DNA of 64,000 nt from Herpetosiphon aurantiacus DSM 785 (GTDB lineage: Bacteria > Chloroflexota > Chloroflexia > Chloroflexales > Herpetosiphonaceae): NCBI GenBank assembly GCA_000018565.1, contig CP000876.1, positions 62,001-126,000 on the forward strand. The letters are read 5' to 3'. Shown piece after piece: positions 15,230 through 38,843 of this stretch. The translations under genes and the position numbers were made by a program. Numbering within the stretch: position 1 is the first letter of the stretch; each line of letters starts with the position of its first letter. The notes beneath the pieces were generated by a model. It saw nothing but the letters and a program-made list of their open reading frames with translations. It was not told the origin of the DNA and ran no database searches.

Positions 15230-15521
15230 CATGCACTCCTTGGGTCACGGGGATCTGAGCGGGTATCGCCCGTGACCAATCAACCGCCAACCACACACCC
15301 AACGGCAGCGGCGGAACCCCGACCTGGGCGAGCCATGGGCCAAGTGCCGTAGTCACCGCATCCTGCGTGGGCAACCACGAACCGAGCGGCGGCGGGGGCA
15401 GCGTCACCACCCCCGTTGCCAGTCGCGTGACCAGCCAGCGCCGCAGCAGCAACGCCAGCACCGTCACCACCGCCCAGCCCACCGTCCACAGCACCACCAC
15501 ACTGTCCAGCGCCGCGCTCAT
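15219..15521 (-). CDS. Small membrane protein in the sortase operon
   Basis: 100 residues: one strong N-terminal membrane segment (VVVLWTVGWAVVTVLALLLRRWL) and a Pro/Leu-rich remainder. It overlaps its upstream gene by ATGA and the sortase start by about 11 bases, implying translational coupling. No family recognised. Confidence 0.55.
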   Translation of the reverse strand: MSAALDSVVVLWTVGWAVVTVLALLLRRWLVTRLATGVVTLPPPPLGSWLPTQDAVTTALGPWLAQVGVPPLPLGVWLAVDWSRAIPAQIPVTQGVHDEN

Positions 15522-16186: not shown

Positions 16187-17088
16187 GCCAGCCTCCGAGG
16201 CCAGAGCAGCCACGCCGCCACCAGCGTCACCAATACCACCAAGCCAATCGGCACCCCAACGGGCATTCCGTCATCGCTCGCCGTCACCGGAAAGGTACGC
16301 TGCGGCTGAGCAGCAGGCCGTGGGGTCGCGCTTGGCTGCACCCCGCCTGCCGCTTTGGGGGTGACGCTCGACCACGCCGTGTTATTCTCAGTTGAGGTTT
16401 CAGTCGTCGTCGTTGAGGCTTGGGCAAGGTTGGTCAAGGGGCCGTCGAGCGAGACAACCGTGCCATCAATCCAAATCGTCACAGTTTGTCCAGCAGACAA
16501 TTCCGCAATGTAAACACTGACGATCCCATCGACTAGCGTTGCCTCGCCCACACTGGTCGTGACGTGCAGGCCGCGAAAAAAGGCAGGCAATACATCACGC
16601 ACCAAGACATTCGCCGCTGGGGCACTGCCGCGATTGTGGACGGTCAGCGTCCAGCGCAGACTCTCGCCAATTGCCACCGTTTGGTGATCGGATACTTTCT
16701 CCAGCACCAGATCGGGCAAGGCCGTCACCGGAGTCACCGTCGCGCCATCACTGGGGGTTGCGGTCGGCATCGTCGTTGGGGTGGCGGTCAAATCAACCGG
16801 CGTTGACGTAATCTCCAGCGGCTGGCGGGTTGGGCGGGGAGTCACCGTCGCGCCATCGCTCGGCGTGCTGGTTGGCAGCGGTGCGTCCGTCGGGCGTGGG
16901 GTGGCGGTTGGATTCGGCACCTCGGTTGGGCGCGGGGTGGCAGTCGGCAGGTCGGTTGGTTCGGGCGAGGGGGTCAGGCTCATCGGCTGCTGGGCTGCGC
17001 TCGATTGCGCCGGAAACAGCTTCTGAAAACCCAACACCAGCGCGATCACGACCGCCATCCCAAACATCACGGTTTCAAGCTTTTTCAT
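16183..17088 (-). CDS. DUF11-domain surface protein with LPXTG-like tail
   Basis: 301 residues. Membrane signal segment at 8-25, then a long Pro/Thr linker (repeated TPRPT and PTATP), and one DUF11 domain (~125-230: LEKVSDHQTVAIGESLRWTLTVHNRG... ANVLVRDVLPAFFRG). A second Pro-rich stretch leads to RTFPVTASDDGMPVG, a hydrophobic helix and WPRRLA. A five-residue FPVTA motif, a membrane helix and a basic end are the hallmarks of a sortase substrate. It lies three genes upstream of the sortase in the same operon. The motif is an inference from layout; FPxTG-type signals are known for other sortases. Confidence 0.7.
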   Translation of the reverse strand: MKKLETVMFGMAVVIALVLGFQKLFPAQSSAAQQPMSLTPSPEPTDLPTATPRPTEVPNPTATPRPTDAPLPTSTPSDGATVTPRPTRQPLEITSTPVDLTATPTTMPTATPSDGATVTPVTALPDLVLEKVSDHQTVAIGESLRWTLTVHNRGSAPAANVLVRDVLPAFFRGLHVTTSVGEATLVDGIVSVYIAELSAGQTVTIWIDGTVVSLDGPLTNLAQASTTTTETSTENNTAWSSVTPKAAGGVQPSATPRPAAQPQRTFPVTASDDGMPVGVPIGLVVLVTLVAAWLLWPRRLA

Positions 17089-20055: not shown

Positions 20056-21696
20056 TTACTCCCGCAGGGCTTCGCAGGCGTGTATGAAGGCCGGAAGCAC
20101 CGTGCGATAGGCAGGGAGCGCGAGTCGCGCCTGTCGCCAGGCATCCCCTGCCGTAATACGTCCATTATCGCAGCGACTGGCGATCAGCAGCATCCGCACC
20201 GAGGCACGGAGCCGCAACCAGAGGGCTGCGGGTATCCACAACGGACGGTGCGGCGGCTCCTGAGCGGCGAGCGACACAGCCGTATCCGTGGTGTCAAGCA
20301 ACGGTTCAAGCGCCACCCAGTCAACCACGACGGGGGGCGGGGCGGATTCGCGGCAGGCGTCGTCAGCGGCTTCGGACTCCGCTTCGGGCGGTGCATCAAG
20401 GCCCAAGGCCGTGTGCCACCGGGAGCGCGCGGCCTCGAAGTCGCGGGGCTGATCGATCTGCCATTTGGCGGCAGCGGGTTCCCAGCCGTGATCCTGAATA
20501 TCCCGCAGGATACTGACGACCCACCCGCCGATATCGCGAACGCCCGTGCGCTGGCGGGCATCGGCCACGACCGTTTCCAGCGTGGCCAAATCGATATCGG
20601 CAAACTCGGCAAGTTGTTTGGGCCGAATGGCCAGTGAGCGCAGCAATGCAACCTGCGGGGTCCCCGGAATTGACATAATGTTGCGACGGCGCAGAATAGT
20701 TCTGGTAACGGGTTCTGGTAGATCTTGGTCGATTTCGTTCCCTGATCGTTCGTTGGTTCGATCAGAAATAAAGACTCCACCACCGTTTTGTATGCTATGC
20801 AGAGTGTTTTCTGGTGGTTGATCTTCTCTGTCTATTTTGCTTAATCTGCCTGTGACGTTCCATGAATCATGGGCAACCGCCGTTTTTTTGCTTCCTGACG
20901 CGTCAAAACCGTCCTCGGACACGCTGTCCGCCATCGCCATGTTCGTCGCCATGGTCATCACCATGATCGTCGCCAGGTCCGGTTCCACAAAAAAAAGCGG
21001 GGGTCGCGGATCAGGGTCGCTGGGCCGCATGACTCCGCCGCGTGGCAGCAGCTGCAAACGCTGTGCGCCGTGGAGACTCATCGTCCCCTGCGCCAGAATC
21101 TCCGCAATGCTTGGCACGGCCAGCGGGACATTCTGTTGACATAAACCACGGTGTTGGAGTGTTGCTGTGCTATGGCGATGCGGAATCCCGGCCACGAGCA
21201 GCATATAGATGCCCACATCGGTCAAGGTCAGGGCGGGCGTGGTCAGATACCGCGTAATGAGTGGCTGGCCGTGCGACCGTGGCTCAATCCGGCCAAGGTA
21301 GTAGTCGAGCAGGGTGCGGTCGAGCCGATGGGTGGCCACCCGCCCGCGATTGAATGATTGCGCGGGTTCCCACTGGCGCACGCCTTCGCGTTGCCATCCC
21401 CACGTGGGCACATAGGCGATTTTGCAGCCGTGCTGCGGAGGCGTAGGAATGGCGAGCCAGTGGCCAGCCAGAAGCTGGTCGAAGGCCGTGCGAATCTTGG
21501 CGCGGGTCAGTGACGGGTCATAGACCTGAATATCGTGAGCAGACAGTGGAACGGACGTATGCTGGGCGAGCCAGCGCCGCGCAATCAGGGCATAGATGCC
21601 TAACGCGAGCGGGGCATGGGCGAGGGTTTCCGCAAGTTTGGTCGGGAACCAGAGATATGATCGGTCGGGTGCGGCTAGCCATACGGGATTGCGCAT
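20056..21696 (-). CDS. Large protein with N-terminal winged-helix features, initiator-like
   Basis: 546 residues from the ATG at 21696 (GGAGG close upstream; a start at 21732 is possible). The N-terminal ~130 residues (WFPTKLAETLAHAPLALGIYALIARRWL... LTRAKIRTAFDQLLAGHWLAIPTP) have the layout of winged-helix initiator or DnaD/RepA-type domains. There is a low-complexity Met/Asp stretch near 250. A C-terminal helical region has LEFADIDLATLETVVADARQ-like spacing. I do not recognise the family. Its place directly before an integrase-like gene and next to a promoter-terminator RNA candidate suggests a plasmid- or ICE-derived module. Confidence 0.45.
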   Translation of the reverse strand: MRNPVWLAAPDRSYLWFPTKLAETLAHAPLALGIYALIARRWLAQHTSVPLSAHDIQVYDPSLTRAKIRTAFDQLLAGHWLAIPTPPQHGCKIAYVPTWGWQREGVRQWEPAQSFNRGRVATHRLDRTLLDYYLGRIEPRSHGQPLITRYLTTPALTLTDVGIYMLLVAGIPHRHSTATLQHRGLCQQNVPLAVPSIAEILAQGTMSLHGAQRLQLLPRGGVMRPSDPDPRPPLFFVEPDLATIMVMTMATNMAMADSVSEDGFDASGSKKTAVAHDSWNVTGRLSKIDREDQPPENTLHSIQNGGGVFISDRTNERSGNEIDQDLPEPVTRTILRRRNIMSIPGTPQVALLRSLAIRPKQLAEFADIDLATLETVVADARQRTGVRDIGGWVVSILRDIQDHGWEPAAAKWQIDQPRDFEAARSRWHTALGLDAPPEAESEAADDACRESAPPPVVVDWVALEPLLDTTDTAVSLAAQEPPHRPLWIPAALWLRLRASVRMLLIASRCDNGRITAGDAWRQARLALPAYRTVLPAFIHACEALRE

Positions 21697-21765
21697 GACC
21701 TCCGCCCCACCGCTCGGGTGGGTTGATGGCATAGGGTATACGATCCCTTACCACCTTTGGAATGC

Positions 21766-21794
21766 TTGACATTTTCATGATGTCAGCGTATACT
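21766..21794 (+). promoter_or_regulatory. Consensus sigma-70 promoter
   Basis: TTGACA at 21766-21771, a 17-bp spacer, and TATACT at 21789-21794, firing rightward into 21801-21875. It is divergent from the initiator-like gene. Confidence 0.75.
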
Positions 21795-21800
21795 CAAAGG

Positions 21801-21875
21801 CAGCAAAATATCTCCCGAAAGGGAGTAAATCTATTCAGAAAAACGCTTGTATTGTTTAGAAGGAGCGTTTTTCTT
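21801..21875 (+). ncRNA. Candidate ~75-nt small RNA
   Basis: It starts about 7 nt after a consensus -10 box. It contains hairpin CTCCC-GAAA-GGGAG (21812-21825, GNRA tetraloop). It ends at hairpin AAAAACGCT...AGCGTTTTT (21839-21872) followed by CTTC, a terminator-like structure. No start codon or reading frame of note. The terminator also lies beyond the stop of the leftward HTH gene at 21941 and could serve it. Family unknown. Confidence 0.55.
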
Positions 21876-21940
21876 CATTTTAGCCAGCCTTTGATTGATT
21901 CCCCGCTGGCTTCTGAGAAAGCCTCTAAAGGCTTATTACT

Positions 21941-22144
21941 TTATTCACTTTTAATATTTGCTCGCGATCCCTTGCGAGGTGCGCCTGGTTTACGATTTTG
22001 GACTAACACAAGATCCTTTTCAGAGATCATCCATACACCACTAAATTTAGTAGCAGGCAATCTTTGTGATTGAATTAATGCACGTACTCGCGTTGGGGTT
22101 ACTCCCAATTTTTGAGCTGCATCTTGTGTTGTGAGAAAGCCCAT
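21941..22144 (-). CDS. Small excisionase-type HTH protein
   Basis: 67 residues: GFLTTQDAAQKLGVTPTRVRALIQSQRLPATKFSGVWMISEKDL. This is the MerR-like/HTH_17 fold with the usual AAxxLGVTxxRVRxLI and W-x-I wing, then a basic tail (RKPGAPRKGSRAN). Starts further upstream (22219) add unlikely residues. It sits at the edge of the AT-rich island, close to the integrase-like gene, fitting an excisionase or regulator of the island. Confidence 0.75.
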   Translation of the reverse strand: MGFLTTQDAAQKLGVTPTRVRALIQSQRLPATKFSGVWMISEKDLVLVQNRKPGAPRKGSRANIKSE

Positions 22145-22291
22145 ATCTGCACCTGTGTAATAAGTACGGCAAATATAGCACACACGCAATAGTTTTGCAA
22201 CAACTTCTAAGAGTTTCACGGTAAGTTAATAAGATGATCACGGATGTCGCCCTACATCACGCCATTGTTCGTTTATACGCAGAACAAGCTT

Positions 22292-22321
22292 GATTGAACC
22301 CTATTAATATAGGGTTCAATC
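22292..22321. repeat. 30-bp perfect dyad
   Basis: GATTGAACCCTAT-TAAT-ATAGGGTTCAATC: 13-bp arms around a 4-bp centre in the ~220-base gap between the HTH gene and the CPBP gene. No T run follows, so an operator, perhaps of the HTH protein, is more likely than a terminator. Confidence 0.6.
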
Positions 22322-22442
22322 GGGACGCTCTTGTGTTAAAGTACACCAACTTACTATTTACTCTATATTTTGTAAGGGGTAAGTTTCACGATCAACCATA
22401 ACCTATAAATTTAGTCATAAATATATGTTTTTTCACATATAT

Positions 22443-23255
22443 TTACTTCTCTAAAGATTTTTTATATCTACTTACTACTATAGTAATAACTATTGCTCCG
22501 ATATGGAATAGTGTCATCAACCAGCCACTCTCAGGTGAGTTGGTACCAACTATATGAGATGGTCCATCAATAGCGATAGGTCGTAAAGACGCTCTTTTAT
22601 CATGGCCAAATATTACCAATTGAGAAATATTCCAAGACCAATGATAGCCAATGGGTATTGCTAATGAATTTGAATGTTTTCGCAATTCGGTTAATAATAG
22701 TGCCATAGTAAAATAGCCACTGGCGGCAGCCAATGTTTTAGGTCTATGCCCTAGCGTAAACAGGCCGCCTAAAAAGACCGTAGCACCAATAGGGCCAATT
22801 GCCTTACTCCATATATCGTATCCATATCCCCGAAATACTTGTTCTTCGTTTATTGAGACTGCAAAGTGGCCTATGGTAGTAATTAGTATTGAAAAAACAA
22901 GTTGGTGGATACTATTAGTTTTCCAGCCCCATTCGGAGGTTTGAATCCAATTGCTCGATGCAGCAACCCATAGCCATCCAAAATATATTGACGATCCTAA
23001 TACAATCCCTGTCCCAAAATTGTTAAAAACAGTCTTGGTAGGCAACAAGGTTTTATTCGTTGGTTTGGATAGAATGCATGTTAATACTGCGACTGCTGGG
23101 CTGGCTGTAATATGCATATACTCGTTCATAAAAGCTGAACCACGGTTTTGGAGGCGAAATGCTCCCTCGAGTATAACCACAGCACTTGTCAGATAGAGCA
23201 CGCCCTTGAGAAGCGATTTTCCATCAAATAATTGAGATTTAGTCATATAAATCAT
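22443..23255 (-). CDS. CPBP-family intramembrane metalloprotease
   Basis: 270 residues with seven or eight membrane segments. Motif 1 is NEEQVFRGYGYDIW (Glu-Glu and Arg). LFTLGHRPKTLAAASGYF supplies the second motif His, and IGYHWSWNISQLVIFG the third motif His and Asn. This is the complete Abi/CAAX-type catalytic pattern; family members process prenylated or peptide substrates inside the membrane. It starts 17 nt after the histidine kinase stop and ends the peptide-prenyltransferase operon, so a role in maturing or clearing the peptide is plausible. Base composition is AT-rich like its neighbours. Confidence 0.85.
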   Translation of the reverse strand: MIYMTKSQLFDGKSLLKGVLYLTSAVVILEGAFRLQNRGSAFMNEYMHITASPAVAVLTCILSKPTNKTLLPTKTVFNNFGTGIVLGSSIYFGWLWVAASSNWIQTSEWGWKTNSIHQLVFSILITTIGHFAVSINEEQVFRGYGYDIWSKAIGPIGATVFLGGLFTLGHRPKTLAAASGYFTMALLLTELRKHSNSLAIPIGYHWSWNISQLVIFGHDKRASLRPIAIDGPSHIVGTNSPESGWLMTLFHIGAIVITIVVSRYKKSLEK

Positions 23256-23272
23256 TCCATAGCTAATAAGGA

Positions 23273-25681
23273 TTAACAGTAAATTCCTAGTAAGTCAGGC
23301 TGTTCAACGGAAACACCAGAATTTAAGGGGACAAAAATGCTAACGCGGGTTCCAGTGTTTATATCTGATTGAATCTCTATCCTTCCTCCAATCATATAAA
23401 TTCTTTCTTTCATATTTCGTATCCCAAAATGTCCGGGTCTATTTAACACTGGTTGTTTTGGAGACCCATTATCGCTAATAATAACTCGTAAAGCTGAATT
23501 ATTACTATTGGGATAACAAATCTCAATAGTAATAGTTGTAGCATTAGCATGTTTAATTGAGTTTAATACTGCCTCTTTGACAACTCTAATTATCTCATGC
23601 TGAATTGATGTCGATATTGGTATTATTTTATTAATAACAACAATATCAATAATGCCTTTATAAATACAACGGATTTGGTCGATTTGATTTGATAATACTG
23701 GAATAAATCCTAATGGGTCATCAATACCACTGGGATGTAATGATTCACAGATCATCCGTAATGAGTAAGCTGTATCTTTCTCGCCAGTTAGTAATAGATC
23801 AAGTTGGTCAAGTATAAATTGATCATCAATATAGCCTACAAGATTTTGTATTGTTTCAATATTTAGTTTAATGTTTACATTTATAATTTCATCATGTATT
23901 TCACGAGCAATCTTTTTTGCTGTGATATCTTGAATATTCTTCAAAGAACTAAAAAGCTCCCTAACCGTTCTTTCTGCAATTGACTTTTGCGTGTAAAGAT
24001 AACTATTACCATATGCCATTGATGAAGCATTAATTAGTTTTTGTAATTCCTCAATATCTTGTAGTCTATATGGATCTAAATCATTCCTTCGTCCAACTGC
24101 AATTAATCCTAATAGCTTGTATTGAGGATGATAAATAGGGCAAAGTAATGTGATTTGTGGGTCATATAATAACATTGAGGCATAGTTATTATTATTGGAT
24201 ATATCTCGTTGGATTTTATTTCTAAAATCTAATATTTTCATAATATCTGCATTATCATCAAATATATTTAAGTCTTTTAGATTTATTTTTTCGGGAATAT
24301 TAGGCATTCTGTCATTATAAACACAATTTAGTAATTCATCATCAATTTCTCTGCGTAAATATATACCCATAGATGGGTTATTAAAAACTTTGCCTAGAGA
24401 TGTCACTATTGGTCTTGTTAATTGGTCACTCTCAAGTGTCTTAGATAAATCTATTATTGCTTGATTAAAATATTTATAATCATTTTCTTTCTTTAGTATA
24501 GGTATATATTTTCTGACTAATAATAATATTGGATGAAATAATAATATAATACATATTGACGCTGCAATATGGTTTTCGTGTATCGGCTTATTTAATATAT
24601 TAAATAATGTTATATTGAAAATGATATCTATTGAAAATGATATTATATAACTTAGGATAATTAAAAATAATTTATCAAATCTATATAAATCTGGCGCTGT
24701 GCCACTAATCATATATGACATAGGTATCAATATAGTTGCTATATGATTAATTTGGCTTGTTATTGGAGTTTCAAATATATACATTGGTGTTATTAAAAAT
24801 ACAATCCATAGACATATAACCATACAATATGTACTTATTAATATTCGAATTTGCCGTCTTATATGGCTAATATTATTTATTTTATAAGCTTTAAATAGTA
24901 TTAATGTGCTTAATATAAATGATATCAATAAAAATACAGGTAATATAATATTTAGTTTTGCGACAATACTCAGTAGATTCTCTTTATAATCCCATATAAA
25001 TATTAATAAAAATACATTCATTGTAAAGAATATATATATTCCTTTATTTTCGAATTTTCGTATATTAAATATGCTTTCAGGTCTATAGGGGAAAAATAAA
25101 TGCATTATGGTAAAGTATGGAGACAAAAATGTAATCATAATCCATTCGAGTGTTATTAAAAGTCTTACAGCACCCTGTCCTGCAAATAAATGAAGGCCAA
25201 CAACTACCCCAACTCCAAACCATAAAATTCCGATTCCTGATGGCGCGATACCTTCATAAAAAGATTTACTACTTAATTTATATCCAGTTATAATGCAACA
25301 AAGAGATATGATGATATTAACTATCTTATTGATCTGATTATCCAGGCTTGGTGCTGACTTAATTATTTCTAAATGAATAATACTGCCATTTCGATCAATA
25401 GTTATGGGTATATGTTCATTTATATTAGGCTCAAATCTAGAAAAATTCCAGTCATTAACAACATCTTCCCATTTTTTATTATATATAGCTATGAGTCTGT
25501 CGTCTATTTTTAAATCTACGCCTTTTTCAATAAGATCTTTTTCGATAAACATAATTTTATTATTATTTGGATTCACAAAAAAACCAACACCGCTTTTTTT
25601 CCAAAACTCTATATTAATAGCTAGTATAATAATAGATAATATAATTCCTATAATAATCTTATTAATAAATCTATATTGCAT
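23273..25681 (-). CDS. ComP-like membrane sensor histidine kinase
   Basis: 802 residues. First membrane segment (7-26); then an extracytoplasmic PDZ-like stretch (~30-110: FIEKDLIEKGVDLKIDDRLIAIYNKKW). About seven more membrane helices run to ~375, followed by a cytoplasmic GAF-like region (~400-560). The HisKA_3 helix has AREIHDEIINVNIKLN (phospho-acceptor His ~614). The HATPase part has VKEAVLNSIKHANA (N box), ISDNGSP and GHFGIRNMKERIYMIGG (G boxes). This order (TM, PDZ-like, polytopic sensor, NarL-type kinase) is that of Bacillus ComP. It starts 2 nt after the prenyltransferase stop with GGAG upstream. It probably phosphorylates the regulator at 26866-27495. Composition is near 30% GC. Confidence 0.85.
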   Translation of the reverse strand: MQYRFINKIIIGIILSIIILAINIEFWKKSGVGFFVNPNNNKIMFIEKDLIEKGVDLKIDDRLIAIYNKKWEDVVNDWNFSRFEPNINEHIPITIDRNGSIIHLEIIKSAPSLDNQINKIVNIIISLCCIITGYKLSSKSFYEGIAPSGIGILWFGVGVVVGLHLFAGQGAVRLLITLEWIMITFLSPYFTIMHLFFPYRPESIFNIRKFENKGIYIFFTMNVFLLIFIWDYKENLLSIVAKLNIILPVFLLISFILSTLILFKAYKINNISHIRRQIRILISTYCMVICLWIVFLITPMYIFETPITSQINHIATILIPMSYMISGTAPDLYRFDKLFLIILSYIISFSIDIIFNITLFNILNKPIHENHIAASICIILLFHPILLLVRKYIPILKKENDYKYFNQAIIDLSKTLESDQLTRPIVTSLGKVFNNPSMGIYLRREIDDELLNCVYNDRMPNIPEKINLKDLNIFDDNADIMKILDFRNKIQRDISNNNNYASMLLYDPQITLLCPIYHPQYKLLGLIAVGRRNDLDPYRLQDIEELQKLINASSMAYGNSYLYTQKSIAERTVRELFSSLKNIQDITAKKIAREIHDEIINVNIKLNIETIQNLVGYIDDQFILDQLDLLLTGEKDTAYSLRMICESLHPSGIDDPLGFIPVLSNQIDQIRCIYKGIIDIVVINKIIPISTSIQHEIIRVVKEAVLNSIKHANATTITIEICYPNSNNSALRVIISDNGSPKQPVLNRPGHFGIRNMKERIYMIGGRIEIQSDINTGTRVSIFVPLNSGVSVEQPDLLGIYC

Positions 25682-25683
25682 AT

Positions 25684-26526
25684 TTATACTCCTATATTAA
25701 AAGTTTTCACAAATAATCCCTTAATCGAATTTTTTAATTGATCAGGAAAATTTATCATATTCAATTCAACATGTTCGTAATATATTGAATATATATATTT
25801 ATACATATGTATTGGGCTACTTTCCGATTTTTTCACTATATCTACGAATGATACACTTTTATCCATATCACTCTCATAATCATTGATATCATCACCATAT
25901 TGAATTAGAGTTCCATATATCTCACCTATAACAGCCAAGCTCTCATATATTGACTTATCTTCAAATAATATGATGCCTATACTACCAAAAGCTAAAGCAT
26001 ACGTTGCACCAGTTTTAGATTGTGCTATTTGTTGATATTTAATAGCTATATCTTGCTCTATTGGTTGATTTTTCGAACAAATATCACAATACTGACCACT
26101 GGACATTCTTATCATCATATCAGACCATAATCTTCGTATTTTTACATATCTATATATCGAAAGATTATTACTTATTAAATCATCGAGTATCGACTCAGCA
26201 ATAAGGTATTGGCTAAATAAAATATTATATTGTGTTGATAGGTCTATATCATTAGGAAATGGAGGAGCTATAGGCTGATTATCTTGAATATCATCTAAAC
26301 GGATAATCATTCCATACATCATATGCCATGCATTATTAAGTATAGCTATACATTCCTGAGATGACTCATATGAATCAAGGGATGATGCAATTTCATAAAT
26401 AACGTTAAGCGCTGTACGTTTACTAAAACGTATAGAATCAGCCATGTAGATATCATATAAATTCTTTTGTAAATCTGAATCTATAGATATTGAATCTAAT
26501 CGATTTAACATATAATTATTATTCAT
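25684..26526 (-). CDS. ComQ-like isoprenyl transferase
   Basis: 280 residues of the trans-isoprenyl diphosphate synthase fold. The first Asp-rich motif is MIIRLDDIQDNQ (~73-84). SSGQYCDI lies near 140. SKTGATYALAFGSIGIIL is the helix that normally lines the pocket (~170). The second motif is QYGDDINDYESDMDKS (~212-227). Both motifs are intact, unlike in Bacillus ComQ, whose second motif is degenerate. Length fits ComQ (about 300) and is short for housekeeping synthases. It lies between a small peptide gene and a ComP-like kinase, arguing for a peptide-modifying role. A free isoprenoid product cannot be excluded. Confidence 0.75.
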   Translation of the reverse strand: MNNNYMLNRLDSISIDSDLQKNLYDIYMADSIRFSKRTALNVIYEIASSLDSYESSQECIAILNNAWHMMYGMIIRLDDIQDNQPIAPPFPNDIDLSTQYNILFSQYLIAESILDDLISNNLSIYRYVKIRRLWSDMMIRMSSGQYCDICSKNQPIEQDIAIKYQQIAQSKTGATYALAFGSIGIILFEDKSIYESLAVIGEIYGTLIQYGDDINDYESDMDKSVSFVDIVKKSESSPIHMYKYIYSIYYEHVELNMINFPDQLKNSIKGLFVKTFNIGV

Positions 26527-26540
26527 ACCTAAAATATAAA

Positions 26541-26574
26541 GTAGTTCTACTTACTTCGTAATAAGCAGAACTAC
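26541..26574 (-). promoter_or_regulatory. Hairpin between peptide and prenyltransferase genes
   Basis: On the leftward RNA GTAGTTCTGCTTA pairs with TAAGTAGAACTAC (13 bp including one G-U) around an 8-nt loop. A weak T-rich stretch (TTTATATTTTA) follows. It lies 12 bases after the peptide stop. It could be an attenuator or a 3' stabiliser that keeps peptide mRNA in excess of enzyme mRNA. Confidence 0.6.
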
Positions 26575-26586
26575 CCCAGCTAAAAT

Positions 26587-26781
26587 TTAATCTTCGTGAA
26601 AGATGATTCCTTGATCTGGATTACCAATAGACGTTACCAGAAGGGCTATAATCAATTTGCCTTGGGGAGAGGTTGCAATTCTTATAATATCATTCAGTTG
26701 AGGAATTGCGGTTAGTTTATCTTTGAGTGATAATGGTTCATCCGTTCCAGAATCCGGGTGTGATTGTTCATGAGCACCCAT
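26587..26781 (-). CDS. 64-residue peptide, candidate pheromone precursor
   Basis: GGAGG lies 5 nt before the ATG. The N-terminal third is polar and acidic (HEQSHPDSGTDEPLS), followed by an amphipathic stretch (LKDKLTAIPQLNDIIRIATS), a short hydrophobic run (GKLIIALLVTSIG) and a polar tail NPDQGIIFHED. No homology recognised. Its position between a NarL-type regulator and a ComQ-like enzyme matches ComX. Unlike ComX it has no Trp, and no Tyr or Cys either. So if it is prenylated, the acceptor must differ (the tail offers His, Asn, Gln and Phe). It may instead be a leader-type precursor cut by the CPBP protease. Function is inference from context. Confidence 0.55.
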   Translation of the reverse strand: MGAHEQSHPDSGTDEPLSLKDKLTAIPQLNDIIRIATSPQGKLIIALLVTSIGNPDQGIIFHED

Positions 26782-26865
26782 ATAGCCTCCAGTAATTCAA
26801 TACAACGCTGGATTACTCTAGTCTAGAAGAGCTTTCTACAGCTGTCGATATGTGAAAACACATAG

Positions 26866-27495
26866 CTAGTTTTGTCCATACATCGTGCGATACCAGATAA
26901 CCAACTGTGACCTTTCCAGACAATTTAGCTTCTTTCGAAGATTTGTAATGTAGTTCTGAACAGTTCTACCATCGATATTAAGCTCATTTGCAATATCTAT
27001 CGTTCCTAGCCCCTGCGAAAGATGCTCTAAGATATGTATTTCTCTTGGGGCTAATTGGAACTCTTGTCTCACCATGCTTGTTGTATCAAGAAATTCTTGA
27101 ACCATTGGCGAGTAGTAGGTACTCCCTCGATGAACTGTTTCTATAGCCAGTCGCATATACTCCAGCATCTCTTCCTTGATAACATAACCGGTCACACCAA
27201 TAGCAAAAAAATCGGGTGCCAGTTTTAGGTTAGAAGAAAATATAATAATTCGACAGTAAGGGTATTGTCGAATTATACCTTGGACAAACGATAATGCTGG
27301 ACTGCCCATTCCGCTAATATCAAGGACTAACACGAGTGGTGTTGTAGGAGATTGTACTAGAACGTTTTTAACTGCATCAAAAGACCGAGCAGTTGCAATA
27401 ACCTTGATAGAGGGGCATGCTTTTAGATACATTTGTAGTCCATCGATGATAACAGGATGATCATCTCCAATTATTACGTTGATTAATGAATTCAC
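26866..27495 (-). CDS. NarL/ComA-type response regulator
   Basis: 209 residues. Receiver domain: VIIGDDHPVIIDGL (acidic pocket, 8-21), LVLVLDISGMG (phospho-acceptor Asp ~58), IIIFSSN (Ser/Thr position) and GYVIKEEML (Lys ~107). The C-terminal LuxR-type HTH is LAPREIHILEHLSQGLGTIDIANELNIDGRTVQNYITNLRKKL. First gene of the leftward operon, 85 nt before the peptide. It is expected to be activated by the downstream ComP-like kinase and may bind the repeated dyads at 27557-27578 and 27729-27749. Confidence 0.88.
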   Translation of the reverse strand: MNSLINVIIGDDHPVIIDGLQMYLKACPSIKVIATARSFDAVKNVLVQSPTTPLVLVLDISGMGSPALSFVQGIIRQYPYCRIIIFSSNLKLAPDFFAIGVTGYVIKEEMLEYMRLAIETVHRGSTYYSPMVQEFLDTTSMVRQEFQLAPREIHILEHLSQGLGTIDIANELNIDGRTVQNYITNLRKKLNCLERSQLVIWYRTMYGQN

Positions 27496-27556
27496 ACAGT
27501 CCTCAACATCCTATCGATAGATGCATTTTAGTTTGTTTACGGCAAATTAAGAAAAA

Positions 27557-27749
27557 GCAGATTTGTGCTACTTATGCACTATGGTAACAGAAAGTTTAGT
27601 TGCGTCAAAATAGTAGGTAATGGATTGTAATATTTACATAATGCGGTCTACCCGATAGAGGGATGTTCATCAATTTTTGCAGAAATCCGGATCATCCCGC
27701 TGCGATAATGTCGATTTTGATCAAAGCTGCAGATCGTGCTACTTCTGCA
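27557..27749. promoter_or_regulatory. Divergent control region with paired operator-like sites
   Basis: Two copies of a 21-22 bp site, GCAGATTTGTGCTACTTATGC at 27557 and GCAGATCGTGCTACTTCTGC at 27729. Each has GCA...TGC dyad symmetry, and the second is GCAGA...TCTGC. A 13-bp inverted repeat TAGAGGGATGTTC / GAACATCCCTCTA (27656-27668 and 27773-27785) brackets the second site. They lie between the response regulator and the divergent PHAX gene. Confidence 0.6.
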
Positions 27750-27882
27750 TTCAGCGGCTGTAAAAACTTGACGAACATCCCTCTATAAAGAGGTATTCCT
27801 GAGGACTGGTATACTATCTTTATAAGCAAATGTTCTGCTCGTTTCGGCATACAAGCCATATGGTTTCTTCATGAGGACTATC

Positions 27883-28866
27883 ATGGATCAGTTAATAATC
27901 ATTTCCAATCTCGCAGCTCGATTACAAGAAACCAATGATTTGGCAATAACGCACCTAAAGCGAACACTTACAATATTGGGATACGACCATACTCTTTCTT
28001 TAATTACTGAGGCTGAGGCGCTGGTTGCCCAAGGAGGCATACCAACGAACGATAACACCCGAAAAAGAACCTTGGGGGGAACATTTTTTTACTTAGTTCG
28101 GCGTGATGTCTCATGGAAAGATCGAATTACAATCTTTGGTCTTTCCCCTTCACAACAAGCACAAATATTTTCATGGAAGACGAGAGAAGTTGTTTATAAC
28201 GAGTTTAGCAACCCTGGGATCACTTCTTCAATACAGAGCACATTAAGTGGAAAACCGTCTCATGCAGTCATCCAGCCCAAACGAGTCATCCTCTCGTTTA
28301 AAATAGTCCCTCCAACCATTGGAATAGCCAAAGATATTCAACCACCACAAGACGAAACGTTTGTTACAGCCTATGTATCACGGAAACATTGGCTTAGACT
28401 CGTGGATCAAGGATATTCAGATACAAATGTCACATTAAAAGGTCAGCTTTTCTATGATGAAGGATTAGAGGGATTATCATTCTATGCATACAAGTTAAAG
28501 CATACTCCTGAGGCTTTGTCAGGGATTTCGTACCAATGTGTAACAAGTATTGATCAGGTCTTAATCAAAAAGAATCTCGTTCTTTTGAAGACGATATATA
28601 ATCCTTCCGTATCAACAATCCCTAATTACTTACCACCAGCACCAACGAATCCAACTGAGACGATGCTGTATATAAATCGAAAAGCTTGGAAAGGAATTGC
28701 ATCAGATCGACCCATCCATATCGACGGTTTTGCATATCATGACCCGCTTTTTTCAGGAATTACCGTGAGTGTACGAGCGATTAAGTCGCGAGGACTTCCT
28801 AAACACATGCGCACAGAAAATGAGCACCCACATCATGATTTGGAACAAACCAATAGTTCTGATTAA
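27883..28866 (+). CDS. PHAX RNA-binding-domain protein
   Basis: 327 residues from the ATG at 27883 (GAGGA 6-7 nt upstream, preferred to 27871). Residues ~5-75 read NLAARLQETNDLAITHLKRTLTILGYDHTLSLITEAEAL, followed by GGIPTNDNTRKRTLGGTFFYLVRR. This is the PHAX RNA-binding domain signature (GG...N...RRTpGGvFfxLv) known from the metazoan snRNA export adaptor and from scattered bacteria. The rest has two related beta-rich units (VTAYVSRKHWLRLVDQGYSDTNVTLKGQLFYDEGLEGLSFYAY; MLYINRKAWKGIASDRPIHIDGFAYHDPLFSGITVSV). I do not recognise these; each looks like a small duplicated domain. A structured-RNA-binding role is inferred from the family. Divergent from the ComA-like regulator. Confidence 0.75.
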   Translation: MDQLIIISNLAARLQETNDLAITHLKRTLTILGYDHTLSLITEAEALVAQGGIPTNDNTRKRTLGGTFFYLVRRDVSWKDRITIFGLSPSQQAQIFSWKTREVVYNEFSNPGITSSIQSTLSGKPSHAVIQPKRVILSFKIVPPTIGIAKDIQPPQDETFVTAYVSRKHWLRLVDQGYSDTNVTLKGQLFYDEGLEGLSFYAYKLKHTPEALSGISYQCVTSIDQVLIKKNLVLLKTIYNPSVSTIPNYLPPAPTNPTETMLYINRKAWKGIASDRPIHIDGFAYHDPLFSGITVSVRAIKSRGLPKHMRTENEHPHHDLEQTNSSD

Positions 28867-29039
28867 TGCGAGGCGCGGTTTGCGCATGTCCTGTCAACCA
28901 TGTTCCGAAATATTCCGATCATCTTCGGGAATAGCAGTCCATGACACAGGAATCAGTTGACCTTTTTAGGCTGATGGAGTCAAGACAATGGTCTTCATCG
29001 GCGAGATGGAGCGGGATGTGCGGCTGCGCATCCACGCAA

Positions 29040-29672
29040 TTAGCCCATATGCGCAGCAATCGCCAGTATCCGATCAAAGCGAAAGGCCCGCTCTTCCTGC
29101 CGCAGCTCGCACCAGCCGCGTACCCCCGTGCTCGTCAGTTCGAGCGGGCGAATTGTGCGCGTCGTGATCCGATGTGCTGACGGCGTGTAATAGCGCACGG
29201 TCAGGGTTTGGCCAGAACGAATCGCCTCTCGCACTGCCTGTCGTGCCTGCTCCACCGTGATCGCGGCCTGTGGCTCGTGCCCAACGGCCAGCGGTTCCGC
29301 ATCCGTGGCCAACGGTGGCGTGAGGCTGGAGTGCAACCCCTCCCACTGCTCGTCGATCACACAGCGCTGCGCAAACGACAGATCGGCGAGCAACTGCTGC
29401 GCCTGCTCTTGAAATACCGTCGCATAGCGCGGAACCTGCTGCGCCGCGATCCGCAACGCCAACACCAGCGTTTCGACCTCGCGAGGCGGGGCGGGCTGGC
29501 GCGGCGACGGCAACCCCACAGCACGCGCGACCTGGGCCGCTGCTCCCGCCGGAATCACCCGGTGGGTTGCTGTCCAGCCCGCCTGCACCCCCCCCTGCAT
29601 GCCGCGCTGTTGCTCCAACACCGTCAACGCCTCAGCACGGCCTTCCACCAGCATCACCTGCCGTAGCCGCAC
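29040..29672 (-). pseudogene. C-terminal fragment of a WYL-domain helicase-associated protein
   Basis: 210 residues starting at a GTG without a Shine-Dalgarno. The start (LVEGRAEALTVLEQQRGMQGG... HRVIPAGAAAQVARAVGLPSP) resembles the Helicase_C_3-type end region. The C-terminus is a WYL domain (AIRSGQTLTVRYYTPSAHRITTRTIRPLEL... VRGWCELRQEERAFRFDRILAI). The expected N-terminal part of a ~600-residue protein is missing. GC is high, unlike the island on its left. Either a remnant or a free-standing WYL protein. Confidence 0.5.
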
Positions 29673-29741
29673 CCCTGATTACCACCGCTGCCTATACCCT
29701 AGACGACACGTGGTTTCGTTTACCTTCGTTTTTATCAAAAA

Positions 29742-29775
29742 TTGTCGCGTTAGTCACGACAACTTTGCTATAGCA
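29742..29775 (+). promoter_or_regulatory. Dyad cluster before the CRISPR-Cas regulators
   Basis: TTGTCG-N9-CGACAA (29742-29762), then the 10-bp palindrome TGCTATAGCA (29766-29775). They are 37 bases before the first gene of the cas region and could be operators of the HTH or WYL regulators. Confidence 0.45.
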
Positions 29776-29811
29776 TAAACCTAAACAACCCGATTATTAA
29801 AGGAGTCGTCT

Positions 29812-30030
29812 ATGTTTGGGAATAAAAAATCTAAAGCAGAACGTCATGCGAAAATTATAGAGCTGGTGCGCAAGGCACATCCTCATGGTGTCACTCCAGC
29901 AGAACTCGCCAAGATATTGAATGTGCCTAACTCAACGATTTTGCGCGATTTACCAGAGATTGACAAAAAAGTAATGCTTGATGAATTCAATAATCGATTA
30001 AGAATTGCTTCATTTGATTATGGTGATTAA
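29812..30030 (+). CDS. Small winged-HTH protein
   Basis: 72 residues, AAAGGAG 7 nt upstream. KSKAERHAKIIELVRKAHPHGVTPAELAKILNVPNSTILRDLPEIDKK is a DeoR/HTH_11-like helix-turn-helix with a basic start. No sensor domain. The stop is 72 nt before the WYL regulator start, so the pair probably acts together in controlling the cas genes. Confidence 0.7.
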   Translation: MFGNKKSKAERHAKIIELVRKAHPHGVTPAELAKILNVPNSTILRDLPEIDKKVMLDEFNNRLRIASFDYGD

Positions 30031-30102
30031 ATTTTGCAATTTCCAGTCAGACCCTATGCTATAGTTGGTATACAAGAAGCTTTATGGTATGAGGTTGGTC
30101 TG

Positions 30103-31098
30103 ATGAGTGATGATCGCCTACGAGCAAGAGCTGCGCGGTTATATGGGATTGGTCGCTATCTCTACGAGCGTGGTACTCAAGGTGCACGGGTTGTGGATTT
30201 AGCCCAGTATTTCGATGTTCATCGAAGCCGTATTTATCATGATTTGCAGTTTATGCAGCAAGAGGGTGAGCCTATTTATCAAGATGGGACGCGCTGGTAT
30301 CTTGAACGTGATCGCTATATTCATCGCCTACCAATTAATTTACGTGAAGCTTTAGCATTTTATTTGGCTGCACGATTGCTTTCAAAACAGAGCGATAAGC
30401 ATAATCCCTATGTTGTTTCGGCATTAGATAAATTAGGCAGCGCTTTAGCCAATAATCATCGTAATATTGGTTTGCATATTCAACGGGCAGCCAATGTTGT
30501 CCGTCAACGCCCATCGGATCAAGCCTTTACCAAAATTTTCGAGACCTTTGCACGGGCTTGGGCTGACCAATGTCGCGTTGAAGTAACCTATCTGTCCGCT
30601 AAATCCAAATATAGTACTTGGGAGCAGCGAACTATCTCACCTTATTATTTAGAAGTATCAGGGATTGGCTATTCAACCTATGTGATTGGTCACGATAACA
30701 AATCCAATGCGATTCGCACTTTTAAGCTCGAACGGATTGCCGCCGCCAATCTCCGTCCCTTCGATACGTTTGAAATTCCTGAAACCTTTGATCCACAGGA
30801 GCGGCTGGGCAACGCATGGGGCATTATCTGGCCAGCCGAAGGCGAGGAACCAGTTGATGTACGCTTGCTTTTTGCGCCAGCGGTTGCCCATCGAGTCAAA
30901 GAGACCATTTGGCATCCCAGCCAGATTATCGAAGATTTGCCCAATGGTGGTTGCCGCTATTGTGTGCGGGTGGGCAGCACCTTAGAGATGCGACCATGGG
31001 TGCGTGGTTGGGGTCGTGATGTTGCAGTGGAGTGGCCATTAGCGTTTCGTCAAGAGATGATCGACGAGTTGCAGGCAGCTTTAGCGTTGTATCAATAA
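30103..31098 (+). CDS. WYL-domain transcriptional regulator of the cas locus
   Basis: 331 residues from the ATG at 30103 (GAGG 8 nt upstream; an upstream TTG at 30034 is less likely). N-terminal HTH: RAARLYGIGRYLYERGTQGARVVDLAQYFDVHRSRIYHDLQFM. Middle helical region to ~140. WYL domain at ~175-255 (ADQCRVEVTYLSAKSKYSTWEQRTISPYYLEVSGIGYSTYVIGHDNKSNAIRTFKLERIAAANL) and a WCX-type C-terminus (VDVRLLFAPAVAHRVKETIWHPSQ). WYL proteins bind nucleic-acid ligands and often repress CRISPR-Cas operons. Only 18 nt separate it from cas8. Confidence 0.88.
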   Translation: MSDDRLRARAARLYGIGRYLYERGTQGARVVDLAQYFDVHRSRIYHDLQFMQQEGEPIYQDGTRWYLERDRYIHRLPINLREALAFYLAARLLSKQSDKHNPYVVSALDKLGSALANNHRNIGLHIQRAANVVRQRPSDQAFTKIFETFARAWADQCRVEVTYLSAKSKYSTWEQRTISPYYLEVSGIGYSTYVIGHDNKSNAIRTFKLERIAAANLRPFDTFEIPETFDPQERLGNAWGIIWPAEGEEPVDVRLLFAPAVAHRVKETIWHPSQIIEDLPNGGCRYCVRVGSTLEMRPWVRGWGRDVAVEWPLAFRQEMIDELQAALALYQ

Positions 31099-31116
31099 AT
31101 GAAAGGAGGCTTGCGT

Positions 31117-32595
31117 ATGCTTAAGGAAACTGGTCATCCGCTGGTCGATGTAGGGTTTGCCACCATTGCCGCCCATGTCAACAAAACCAACATCAAGGCC
31201 GTTACTGCCGCAGATCTCGAAAAGGTGGCGGCATATCTTGAGGCTGAGTTTGTGGTGAACCCATTGCGTTCATTTCTCACCGTCGCGTTTACCAGCAATG
31301 CCTGGTTTATCCAAGATGCTTACAATCCTGATAAACCTCAATTAACTGATGAGCAGCGCACAACCCGTCGGGCAACCCGTAAAAAATTGGCTGATGCCCA
31401 TCTGCGTCAATGGCAACAACCAAGTACCAGCGAGCAACGTTGTGTTTTTACCGATGAGCCAGCAGTTGGCGAAGTTTTATCAAATACATTAACGGTTGGG
31501 CGGGCAGCACGTGCCCAAATTCCCTTATTGCAGGGCGACGCTACGATCAACTTTTTTCCGAATGGCAATGCTGGCCTGCCAGTTTCGGGGATTGCTCTCT
31601 TGGCGTTGCAAGCTTTCCCGCTGGGCAGCGCCAAGGCTGGCAATGGCATCTTAGTGGTGCACTCGGCCAACCCACGCTTGACCTTAAATTTTGCCAAAAC
31701 CTTTTATCAGCGCAATAAAAGCAAAATTGAACGAGCACGAATTGCAGGCGATGATCGGGTTCCAGGCGAAGTACGCTCACCAAAAACCTTATTAATTGAA
31801 ACGTTGTTTGAAATTACAGCCGAACGCGAAAATTACGATGACGACCAAATTACCAGTATTGTGGCCTACAACCTGAACAATGGTAAAACGCCGAGCTTAG
31901 CAATTTATGAACTGCCCCATGAAATTATTTTGTTCATGCTCGAAGCTAAAGGGCATTTTCCTAAGCAATGGAATCAATTAGTGCATGGAGCTTGGGAACA
32001 AGCTTCGGCGGCAAGTAAGAAATCAAATCAACATTTTGAGCCACGGCGCAATTATTTTTATGAAGATATGTTTGATCTACCAAATAATGCCAAACGCTTT
32101 GTTCGTACATATTTCCTCAAAATGCCCTATTTAGGCACGCTCGATGATGATAATCAATCACGCTATTACTTACACGATTATTATCATTTGATTGATTTTC
32201 CAATTGTTGAACTTTTTTTAAGGAGGATTTTCCTGATGGACGACCTACGGATCGCACGAATTAAGCATTTTGGCGATAAATTAGCCAATTATGTCCGTGC
32301 TGAAAATGGCAAACGCTTTTTTCGGGCTTTTGCCAGCGAGTATAAATATCAAGATTTTCGGCAGCGCTTAATTAAAGCGAGTGAAGATTATGTACGCTCT
32401 AGCCAAGAACCCTTATTTACCATTGATGAATATGTCGATGTTTTTGAACGCCAATATAGCGACCAAGCTCCCGATTGGCGGTTATCCCGCGATCTGGTGC
32501 TGATTCGCATGATTGAACAATTAAAGGATTGGCTGAGTCGCAACCCCGATGCGATGCCTGAGCGGCCTGAGCCAAAGCAGGAACAATCGAATTAA
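31117..32595 (+). CDS. cas8: Cas8-type large subunit of a type I-B-like Cascade
   Basis: 492 residues. The ATG at 31117 follows AAAGGAGG; the ATG at 31099 lies upstream of that Shine-Dalgarno and is rejected. There are no strong sequence motifs, as usual for Cas8. Identity rests on size, on being first in the operon before cas7-cas5-cas3, and on an N-terminal globular part plus a helical C-terminus. In type I, Cas8 recognises the PAM and holds the non-target strand. No CxxC zinc pairs of the Cst1/Cas8a type were found. The last 119 codons have their own ribosome site (see the cas11 entry). Confidence 0.78.
   Translation: MLKETGHPLVDVGFATIAAHVNKTNIKAVTAADLEKVAAYLEAEFVVNPLRSFLTVAFTSNAWFIQDAYNPDKPQLTDEQRTTRRATRKKLADAHLRQWQQPSTSEQRCVFTDEPAVGEVLSNTLTVGRAARAQIPLLQGDATINFFPNGNAGLPVSGIALLALQAFPLGSAKAGNGILVVHSANPRLTLNFAKTFYQRNKSKIERARIAGDDRVPGEVRSPKTLLIETLFEITAERENYDDDQITSIVAYNLNNGKTPSLAIYELPHEIILFMLEAKGHFPKQWNQLVHGAWEQASAASKKSNQHFEPRRNYFYEDMFDLPNNAKRFVRTYFLKMPYLGTLDDDNQSRYYLHDYYHLIDFPIVELFLRRIFLMDDLRIARIKHFGDKLANYVRAENGKRFFRAFASEYKYQDFRQRLIKASEDYVRSSQEPLFTIDEYVDVFERQYSDQAPDWRLSRDLVLIRMIEQLKDWLSRNPDAMPERPEPKQEQSN
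32236..32595 (+). CDS. cas11: Cas11 small subunit from an internal start in cas8
   Basis: Inside cas8 and in the same frame, a perfect AAGGAGG (32220-32226) stands 9 nt before ATG 32236. The product would be 119 residues, almost all helical (MDDLRIARIKHFGDKLANYV... DFRQRLIKASEDYVRSSQ... LSRDLVLIRMIEQLKDWL). Independent translation of a ~120-residue C-terminal Cas11 from cas8 is established for types I-B, I-C and I-D. Here it is read from the sequence and not otherwise shown. The leading T-run and the Shine-Dalgarno encode FLRRIF in Cas8. Confidence 0.72.
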   Translation: MDDLRIARIKHFGDKLANYVRAENGKRFFRAFASEYKYQDFRQRLIKASEDYVRSSQEPLFTIDEYVDVFERQYSDQAPDWRLSRDLVLIRMIEQLKDWLSRNPDAMPERPEPKQEQSN

Positions 32596-32627
32596 TCGAG
32601 ATTTAGCCTACTTTAGGAGGATTAACC

Positions 32628-33701
32628 ATGGCTTTCGTGACCGGATTACTCTTGATCGACGCCTCAGCTTCGGCATTAAACAATCTTGGCAGTATTGCAG
32701 GTGAGCGCGAAGAAAACACCGTTGGGGTCAAACATATTCGGGTTTATGGTGATGGCGATTATCCCTATGCTTCCGCCCAAGCCTTCCGCTATTGGCTGCG
32801 CACGACTTTAGAAACCCGTTTTCCAGCGTGGGTCGCCTCACCGATGTATCGTGAAGAAAAAATTGCCTACACCGATGCCAACCCTATGCAATGGTGGGAT
32901 GACGATTTGTTTGGCTATATGCGAGCGCCATCCAAAAAGGAATCGGCTAAAGCCAAACGCGAGGCTGACCCAACCTTGGCCCAAGCGACCGAAACCACTG
33001 ACACAATCACTCGTGTTTCGCCATTTCGCGTTGGTACATTAGTCTCAATGAATCCCGTTAAAATCGTCAGTGATTTTGGCACAATGTCACGCCACGAAGG
33101 CAACCCAGTTCCGCACGAGCATCAATTTTATCGCGCAACGTTGAAGGGTTTGTGGTCGCTTGATTTGAGAGCTGCTGGCACATTCTCCTATCGCAACAAA
33201 ACTGGCTTCCGCAATCTCGATTCGGTGCGCGAACAATTAGCCAAACAGCAAAAACTTGAGCATCTTGAGCACGCTAAATCCTATCGCTTGCCATTAGAAG
33301 TGCGCCAACAACGGGTTAAAACCCTGTTTGAAGGCATGGCGCATCTCGAAGGCGGCGCAAAACAAACCTTGCACTACACCGATGTTGCTCCAGTTTTGAC
33401 GATTTTTGCCGTAACCAAGGGTGGTAATCATATTTTCAATCATGTGGTTACCACGACCGATCGCGGCAAGCCAACGATTAATACAGCGGCACTTGACGAG
33501 GCCTTACGGGTATTTGCCGACGAATTGCTCTCGCCTGTGTATGTGGGCTGGGTACGGGGCTACAACGATCAAGAACGTCAAGCATTTGAAGAGTATCTTG
33601 CCAATTCTCCTGCGCCAATTCAATTAAGTCATCCACGCGAGGCCTTTTTGAACTTTGCCGAAAGCATTTTGGCCGCCGAAAACCATCAATGGATGGAATA
33701 G
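32628..33701 (+). CDS. cas7: Cas7 backbone subunit (DevR/Cst2 type)
   Basis: 357 residues, AGGAGG before the ATG. The N-terminus MAFVTGLLLIDASASALNNLGSIAGEREENTVGVKHIRVYGDGDYPYASAQAFRYWLRTTLE is the standard Cas7-I-B/DevR RAMP start with the conserved S-N-x-G and SxQAxRxWLR stretch. The middle has a variable insertion (Lys/Glu-rich ~105-125). Cas7 polymerises along the crRNA. 32 nt after cas8. Confidence 0.9.
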   Translation: MAFVTGLLLIDASASALNNLGSIAGEREENTVGVKHIRVYGDGDYPYASAQAFRYWLRTTLETRFPAWVASPMYREEKIAYTDANPMQWWDDDLFGYMRAPSKKESAKAKREADPTLAQATETTDTITRVSPFRVGTLVSMNPVKIVSDFGTMSRHEGNPVPHEHQFYRATLKGLWSLDLRAAGTFSYRNKTGFRNLDSVREQLAKQQKLEHLEHAKSYRLPLEVRQQRVKTLFEGMAHLEGGAKQTLHYTDVAPVLTIFAVTKGGNHIFNHVVTTTDRGKPTINTAALDEALRVFADELLSPVYVGWVRGYNDQERQAFEEYLANSPAPIQLSHPREAFLNFAESILAAENHQWME

Positions 33702-33711
33702 GAGCAGATTG

Positions 33712-34428: not shown

Positions 34429-34432
34429 GGAG

Positions 34433-36847: not shown

Positions 36848-36848
36848 C

Positions 36849-37808: not shown

Positions 37809-37826
37809 CCAAACTTGGAGCATATG

Positions 37827-38840: not shown

Positions 38841-38843
38841 TCT

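Follow-up and report, generated by a model that had tools for sequence, protein, structure and literature searches.

Plasmid pHAU01 (339,639 bp) of the predatory gliding bacterium Herpetosiphon aurantiacus 114-95T carries a five-gene operon in which a response regulator, a small peptide, an isoprenyl transferase, a sensor kinase, and a membrane protease are encoded side by side, a gene set that recalls the ComQXPA quorum-sensing system. The operon lies in the window analyzed here, a 64,000-nt stretch corresponding to positions 62,001-126,000 of the plasmid; the genome totals 6,785,430 bases in three contigs, with a chromosome of 6,346,587 and a second plasmid of 99,204, all three sizes being equal to those published for this strain (PMC3368417). 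In window coordinates, the genes are:

26866-27495, minus strand: regulator, 209 aa, GTG start, NarL/ComA-type, homologous to its counterparts in the other loci described below
26587-26781, minus strand: candidate pheromone precursor peptide, 64 aa, with no Trp and no Cys
25684-26526, minus strand: transferase, 280 aa, trans-isoprenyl diphosphate synthase (trans-IDS)-like, of the group called type I here; candidate peptide prenyltransferase
23273-25681, minus strand: ComP-like sensor histidine kinase, 802 aa, with a PDZ-like segment, a polytopic sensor, and HisKA_3-like and HATPase parts
22443-23255, minus strand: CPBP/Rce1-like membrane protease, 270 aa, with EExxxR, FxxxH, and HxxxN motifs

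A first-pass annotation, made from the letters of the stretch, had described five leftward genes in this order, the last four closely spaced, on an AT-rich island in a Chloroflexota genome, and this picture holds. All five open reading frames (ORFs) are where they were placed on the minus strand; by coordinates, the gap between regulator and peptide is 84 bp and those that follow are 60, 2, and 17 bp. The operon has a GC content of 32% (25-33% in the kinase and transferase genes), and the six 1-kb bins from 22,001 to 28,000 range from 25 to 39%, as compared to 57-58% in bins 21,001-22,000 and 29,001-30,000. The assignment of the host to Chloroflexota is supported.

Is this arrangement accidental? 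The same gene order is found in eight other loci, and thus the five-gene arrangement is beyond chance. Searches with the window transferase against 82 genomes of the order and with transferase profile A1 against 158 genomes of the class, many of them drafts, identified type I transferases in seven of the 158, host included, at eight loci: the window, L012 (Candidatus Chloroploca asiatica B7-9), L027 (Chloroflexi bacterium AL-N1), L028 (a metagenome-assembled genome labeled Gracilibacteria, which taxonomic placement assigns to the host's order), L029 and L032 (Chloroflexales W4), L030 (OHK40), and L031 (uncultured Oscillochloris). The remaining 151 genomes of the class have no type I transferase at that level, with weaker matches in six (type II enzymes, discussed below, and ordinary synthases). 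The window transferase has no match in five further genomes of the host genus; viral contigs yielded none to it or to profile A1, and a plasmid collection none to it or to the window kinase. When 84,980 species genomes were scanned, the seven contigs from genomes other than the host were recovered again, along with an additional locus, L048, on a scaffold labeled Scytonema tolypothrichoides, a label we suspect to be wrong or to reflect a contaminant. The module total is thus nine loci: the window, seven loci distributed over six further genomes of the order, and L048. Regulator, transferase, and kinase occur together in all nine, ordered as in the window, and the protease follows in all seven loci whose contig extends beyond the kinase (partial in L029); the L028 and L032 contigs stop within the kinase and hence fall outside this count. 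A small peptide gene is present in eight of nine. A survey of Chloroflexota for the neighborhood, which the first-pass annotation had proposed, therefore finds a recurring module, although the pairs L029/L030 and L031/L032 are close and not independent.

The second line of evidence is a promoter arrangement shared by several of these loci. In the window, it comprises the following elements:

26849-26864, unstranded: dyad TATGTG-N4-CACATA, which directly follows the regulator stop codon and precedes the peptide; putative operator for binding of the response regulator
26820-26825, minus strand: -10-like hexamer TAGACT, 23 bp downstream of the dyad, matching TATAAT at four of six positions
22424-22439, unstranded: one-mismatch dyad just past the protease stop codon, inside an A/T-rich inverted repeat; alternatively, a terminator

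The exact dyad is present in a single copy in the 6.785-Mb host genome. The seven module genomes together have six copies, all located before module genes and none elsewhere in these assemblies: those before the peptide are in the host (one), G425 (two), and G409 (one), and those before the regulator gene are in G400 and G414 (one each); G402 and G214 lack an exact dyad. A reversed control pattern occurs twice over the seven genomes, both times in G425. TAGACT is weak on its own, with other four-of-six hexamers at spacings of 10, 28, and 31 in the window, but a -10-like hexamer lies exactly 23 bp downstream of the dyad at five of five promoters, one per locus (TAGACT, TACAAT, TATGGT, TATAAT, and TATAAT). 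None of 20,000 random sets had a best common spacing as good, in a test that allows choice over 10-40 bp; the 23-bp spacing had been spotted by eye beforehand, and L027, which has two sites, was represented by the nearer one. The peptide promoters of L030 and L031 have degenerate dyads (10 and 8 of 12 positions) at the same spacing before TATACT, that of L032 has no dyad, and the dyad-plus-spacing pattern was not found in viral contigs. In most genomes, dyads with one mismatch occur at close to background frequency (e.g., 32 vs. 21 reversed controls in G425, 10 vs. 7 in G409), and we therefore claim no wider regulon. A dyad at about -51 to -36 occupies the position of a class II activator site; because it does so before the module, we propose that the regulator positively autoregulates the module through this element.

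What does the transferase do? The window protein matches Pfam polyprenyl_synt (9.5e-12) and has both Asp-rich motifs, as the first-pass annotation had read it. In a tree of 31 sequences, nine type I enzymes form a clade with 100/100 support, separate from 12 ordinary synthases including the host's own (99/98), six ComQ rows (92/84; one of them, L055, is unannotated and has a long branch), and four type II enzymes (97/89); a split with 95/92 support separates types I and II together from ComQ plus synthases. Grouping with ordinary geranylgeranyl or farnesyl diphosphate synthases, together with a neighborhood that is not conserved, had been named beforehand as the outcome that would speak against a pheromone system; the type I enzymes fall outside the 12 synthases tested, and this outcome was not observed. 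When the deep order of the tree was examined by the approximately unbiased (AU) test, joining type I to ComQ gave p-AU 0.0575 and joining it to synthases p-AU 0.0928; neither value amounts to a clear rejection, and the tree itself does not unite type I with ComQ.

The motifs are more telling. The basic residues of GKxxR and RR(G) bind isopentenyl diphosphate (IPP). All 12 synthases have the K and R of GKxxR and the leading R of RR(G), whereas none of the 19 type I, type II, and ComQ rows has the pair; the RR(G) column is gapped in every one of them, the nine type I rows included, and GKxxR is missing from each type I row that covers it (the L028 row lacks this part). Every row retains the first Asp-rich motif; the second is DDxxD in all nine type I enzymes and N/GD in ComQ. 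We take the loss of the IPP-binding motifs as a functional hint, and it bears on a rival view in which the transferase is an ordinary or specialized isoprenoid synthase controlled by the neighboring two-component system, the small ORF being incidental. This view draws on the Pfam match, on the AU test, in which grouping with synthases is not clearly rejected, and on two further comparisons. The type I profile is nearest to type II (E 5.8e-19), then to synthases (2.8e-16), and only then to ComQ (1.2e-7). The predicted structure (mean predicted local distance difference test score, pLDDT, 88.8) has an ordinary trans-IDS fold, with a match to 4lfg (Z 25.9, root mean square deviation 2.7 over 260 residues, 18% identity), and no relative of ComQ appears among the PDB matches listed, which are synthases and some terpene synthases; the fold, therefore, cannot separate synthase from peptide prenyltransferase function. 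Yet the enzymes have lost both basic motifs, stand apart from the 12 synthases, and have a recognizable peptide family alongside in six of seven tested loci, and we consider an isoprenoid synthase very unlikely.

The type II ComQ-like transferases were encountered at L034, L035, L038 (genome G424), and L036 (G423), with a ComP-like kinase and a regulator beside L034, L035, and L036. In L035 and L036, the precursor is encoded on its own, is 75 aa long, and carries Trp close to the C-terminus (..SPEAWQWYTPQLKA and ..GDGTWYSPASRE), whereas L034 and L038 each have a single open frame that combines a leader-like part with the transferase. A type II transferase profile run over 400 genomes of the phylum gave 251 matches, was unspecific (the host's own synthase was among them), and was not used.

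The small peptide is encoded between regulator and transferase; in L048, only its C-terminal part is visible, after a run of N. A leave-one-out profile recovered the true ORF as the best match in six of seven loci (E 9e-15 to 9e-4, among 91-357 ORFs), and the peptide family is therefore real at the level of sequence. The C-termini differ: four of eight precursors end in Cys (L029 ..SGVRGC, L030 ..NGVRGC, L031 ..GGVRGC, and L032 ..GRGGC), two have Trp second or third from the end (L027 ..GGWS and L048 ..GGGWSA), and two have neither (window ..IIFHED and L028 ..RDHGVA, the latter from a frame-broken assembly). The window ORF is the most diverged candidate member: it has no Pfam family at E <= 1, and it was assigned by its position, the dyad, its ribosome-binding context, and a weak LSLxxxL..xPxL likeness. 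With the L027 peptide as sole query, a search chosen after the family profile had failed on the window peptide, it ranks first of 1404 ORFs, but with E 0.55. Other frames near the window operon encode no convincing Trp- or Cys-ended peptide. In L012, a reading 'SPKGGTAILTLPFWSFHN' was considered as a peptide relative and dropped, as it extends into the transferase frame. Between peptide and transferase, the window has a further element:

26537-26578, minus strand: hairpin with a 19-bp stem, a possible attenuator (z -4.23, 0 of 200 shuffles as stable)

A hairpin at the same place is stable in L030, L029, and L032 (0-1 of 200 shuffles as stable), weaker in L012 (6/200) and L031 (14/200), and absent in L027 (37/200).

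Because the window peptide is the most diverged, the activity of this copy is uncertain. Is it, then, a decaying or receiver-only plasmid remnant that has lost its acceptor residue and no longer signals to itself? Its peptide, lacking Trp and Cys and missed by the family profile, would fit, as would the long transferase branch (1.57), the tail of the first Asp-rich motif, changed from a QDGD-type sequence to QDNQ, and a drift to AT: the 32% GC is peculiar to the window copy, with 46% and 60% in the relatives in L027 and L012. L012 seemingly does without a peptide altogether. Set against this, all five window frames are open, the catalytic motifs that were looked at are intact, the dyad has no mismatch and no second exact copy in the genome, and the hairpin is strong; we think a remnant improbable.

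In the regulator, Pfam identifies GerE (1.3e-14) and, below threshold, a receiver domain (5.3e-5); a conserved acid pocket (GDDHP), an Asp in VLDIS, and a Lys in VIKEE can be read from the sequence; the regulators of the loci have DDHP and the conserved Asp, in keeping with the NarL-type response regulator first proposed. The protease is Rce1-like (Pfam 6.6e-12), with EExxxR, FxxxH, and HxxxN in all six proteins examined, and its reading as a CPBP protease stands. The ComP-like kinase fares less evenly. HATPase_c (3.7e-9) is over the cut-off, and the type I sensor aligns with that of ComP over 402 columns (hhalign probability 94.7, E 6e-8), as compared to 0.3 for a major facilitator superfamily protein and 1.4 for another kinase of the same plasmid, with ComP represented by an alignment of three and the two controls by single sequences; the match to the type II sensor is stronger still (probability 99.6). 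But HisKA_3 is sub-threshold (0.24), the window kinase has no Pfam PDZ match at E <= 1, so that the PDZ-like reading rests on the profile match to the ComP sensor region, and the catalytic cores form their own group (100/100), apart from three ComP and 10 other host kinases.

How close is the module to ComQXPA? The first-pass annotation had equated the two gene sets, and in both, a precursor, a trans-IDS-like transferase, a polytopic ComP-like kinase, and a NarL/ComA-type regulator are clustered; in the module, the four counterparts are adjacent on one strand, except that L012 lacks an identifiable peptide. The 6-4-6 geometry of the dyad resembles that of the ComA box. Unlike ComQXPA, however, the module runs regulator-peptide-transferase-kinase-protease, with the CPBP protease as an addition. 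The ComX model (PF05952) matched none of the four other precursors tested, a set that excludes those of L028, L030, and L048, and its best match in the host genome (E 0.101) is not the window peptide; all four annotated ComX controls were matched, of which three exceeded the 25-bit cut-off and the fourth scored 24.6. ComX precursors have Trp within the last 5-10 residues (PMC4008528), a rule that two of eight module precursors (L027 and L048) pass and that of the window, without Trp, fails. Since the window fails both the ComX model and the Trp rule, and the transferase and the kinase core form groups of their own outside ComQ and ComP, we do not file the module as a ComQXPA member. Type I enzymes resemble ComQ in keeping the first Asp-rich motif and lacking the basic motifs, but retain DDxxD as the second, which ComQ lacks (PMC10853753). 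In Bacillus subtilis, ComX production has no signal feedback loop (PMC7794433), whereas the dyad suggests autoregulation.

Other known systems share single features. PalQ/PalX, ComQ, and the ChrPC P domain likewise place a trans-IDS-like enzyme beside a small precursor and have a Gln upstream of the second Asp-rich motif, although PalQ and ChrPC were compared by description only; all characterized trans-IDS-like peptide prenyltransferases act on Trp (PMC13290415), whereas half of the module precursors end in Cys. MroQ, a CPBP protease of Staphylococcus aureus, takes the leader off AgrD (PMC10482373), similar to the cut proposed here, but the window protease reaches 12.6 bits on the NCBIfam MroQ model against a cut-off of 270, and AgrD is made into a thiolactone through AgrB, of which no counterpart was seen at the module.

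Taken together, the genes and their motifs suggest that the module is probably an autoregulated lipopeptide quorum-sensing system, ComQXPA-like and with its own maturation protease. In this model, a small precursor would be synthesized, the transferase would add an isoprenyl group near its C-terminus (to Trp in some loci and Cys in others), and the CPBP protease would remove the leader within the membrane. The mature lipopeptide would then exit the cell and be sensed by the ComP-like kinase, which would phosphorylate the regulator; the latter would bind the dyad, which precedes the -10 hexamer by 23 bp, and turn on its own module. The first-pass proposal of a pheromone system has thus gained a conserved module with a peptide gene and a ComP-like sensor, while we infer the pheromone function itself, from prenylation through leader cleavage, export, and sensing to dyad binding and activation. 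Since both Trp and Cys are missing from its peptide, the window copy is the one for which the last links are least certain.

Several observations weigh against this model. The acceptor residue varies among the precursors, the window peptide is outside the top five of 1404 ORFs by the family profile, and the L012 gap in which a peptide would be expected contains none that is identifiable; this gap and the state of the window peptide argue against every copy being live. The type I profile is closer to ordinary synthases than to ComQ, the predicted fold is that of an ordinary trans-IDS, and the kinase cores lie outside the ComP group. No exporter was identified for the module. Finally, the dyad was first read from the window, L027, and L028, which leaves its absence elsewhere and the G400 and G414 sites as the independent evidence.

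Could the product serve another purpose? A self-regulated antimicrobial or other secreted ribosomally synthesized and post-translationally modified peptide (RiPP) would also be prenylated, with kinase and regulator timing its production and the CPBP protein processing it or providing immunity. Peptide, tailoring enzyme, and protease are a RiPP layout as well; PalQ/PalX, a Trp-prenylating trans-IDS-like pair, resides inside a RiPP cluster (PMC10853753), and CPBP proteins can serve bacteriocin immunity (PMC10482373). Yet neither a dedicated transporter nor another tailoring gene adjoins the module in the flanks listed, a ComP-like sensor is encoded in every locus, and the module has one gene for each step of a signaling loop; a RiPP system appears unlikely to us.

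Some loci have additional features. The L048 module is Chloroflexales-like, and its kinase gene is split by an inserted ORF that resembles a transposase by eye. A small DNA-binding protein adjoins the module in five loci, 3' of the protease or divergent from the regulator, and none was seen beside the window or L027 module:

L012, 12255-12665: small DNA-binding protein, GerE-type
L029, 5317-5715: small DNA-binding protein, weakly GerE-type
L030, 7915-8346: small DNA-binding protein
L031, 8915-9262: small DNA-binding protein
L048, 14307-14714: small DNA-binding protein

A ParA-type ATPase and a DnaA_N protein are encoded near the L012 module (L012, 5029-16203), and the L030 and L031 flanks share a common block with 72-78% protein identity in the longest matches. 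The L012, L030, and L031 modules likely have a mobile-element context. In the window, an inverted repeat of ~18 bases (one mismatch by eye, ~95 bp apart; 27656-27785) separates the regulator from a divergent neighbor (27871-28866) with a PHAX RNA-binding domain (PF10258, 6e-13), which we did not expect in a bacterium. Farther away on the plasmid, a sortase (1.1e-18) is encoded close to a DUF11 protein (9.7e-20) at 14504-17088, and a Type I-B CRISPR-Cas system (Cas8b, Cas7b, Cas5b, Cas3, Cas6, Cas1, and Cas4) with an array of 89 repeat copies occupies 30034-46700; the CRISPR cluster of the plasmid has been mentioned before (PMC3368417).

Where would such a module fit among known signaling systems? 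A 2014 census places ComQXPA in no phylum except Firmicutes (PMC4008528), and a 2022 survey lists only the kinase-regulator pair for Chloroflexi (PMC8895600); we found no published system of this kind in Chloroflexota in the open-access literature searched, a scope that leaves out subscription papers and preprints. A bolder and quite tentative proposition is that one bacterial enzyme family may prenylate a pheromone precursor at a Cys that forms its C-terminus or at a Trp close to it, and an Rce1-type CAAX protease from the same operon would mature this precursor; this would be a bacterial counterpart of the yeast a-factor route, coupled with a ComP-like kinase and a regulator that activates itself, and at least partly plasmid-borne in predatory and phototrophic Chloroflexota. 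If the Cys-ended precursors are indeed prenylated, theirs would be the first trans-IDS-like enzyme with a Cys target, because all those characterized act on Trp (PMC13290415). If Chloroflexota do have a conserved lipopeptide signaling module, the range of peptide quorum sensing would grow by one phylum. In Herpetosiphon, for which a quorum of cells has been suggested in wolf-pack predation (PMC3368417), the module offers a concrete lead.

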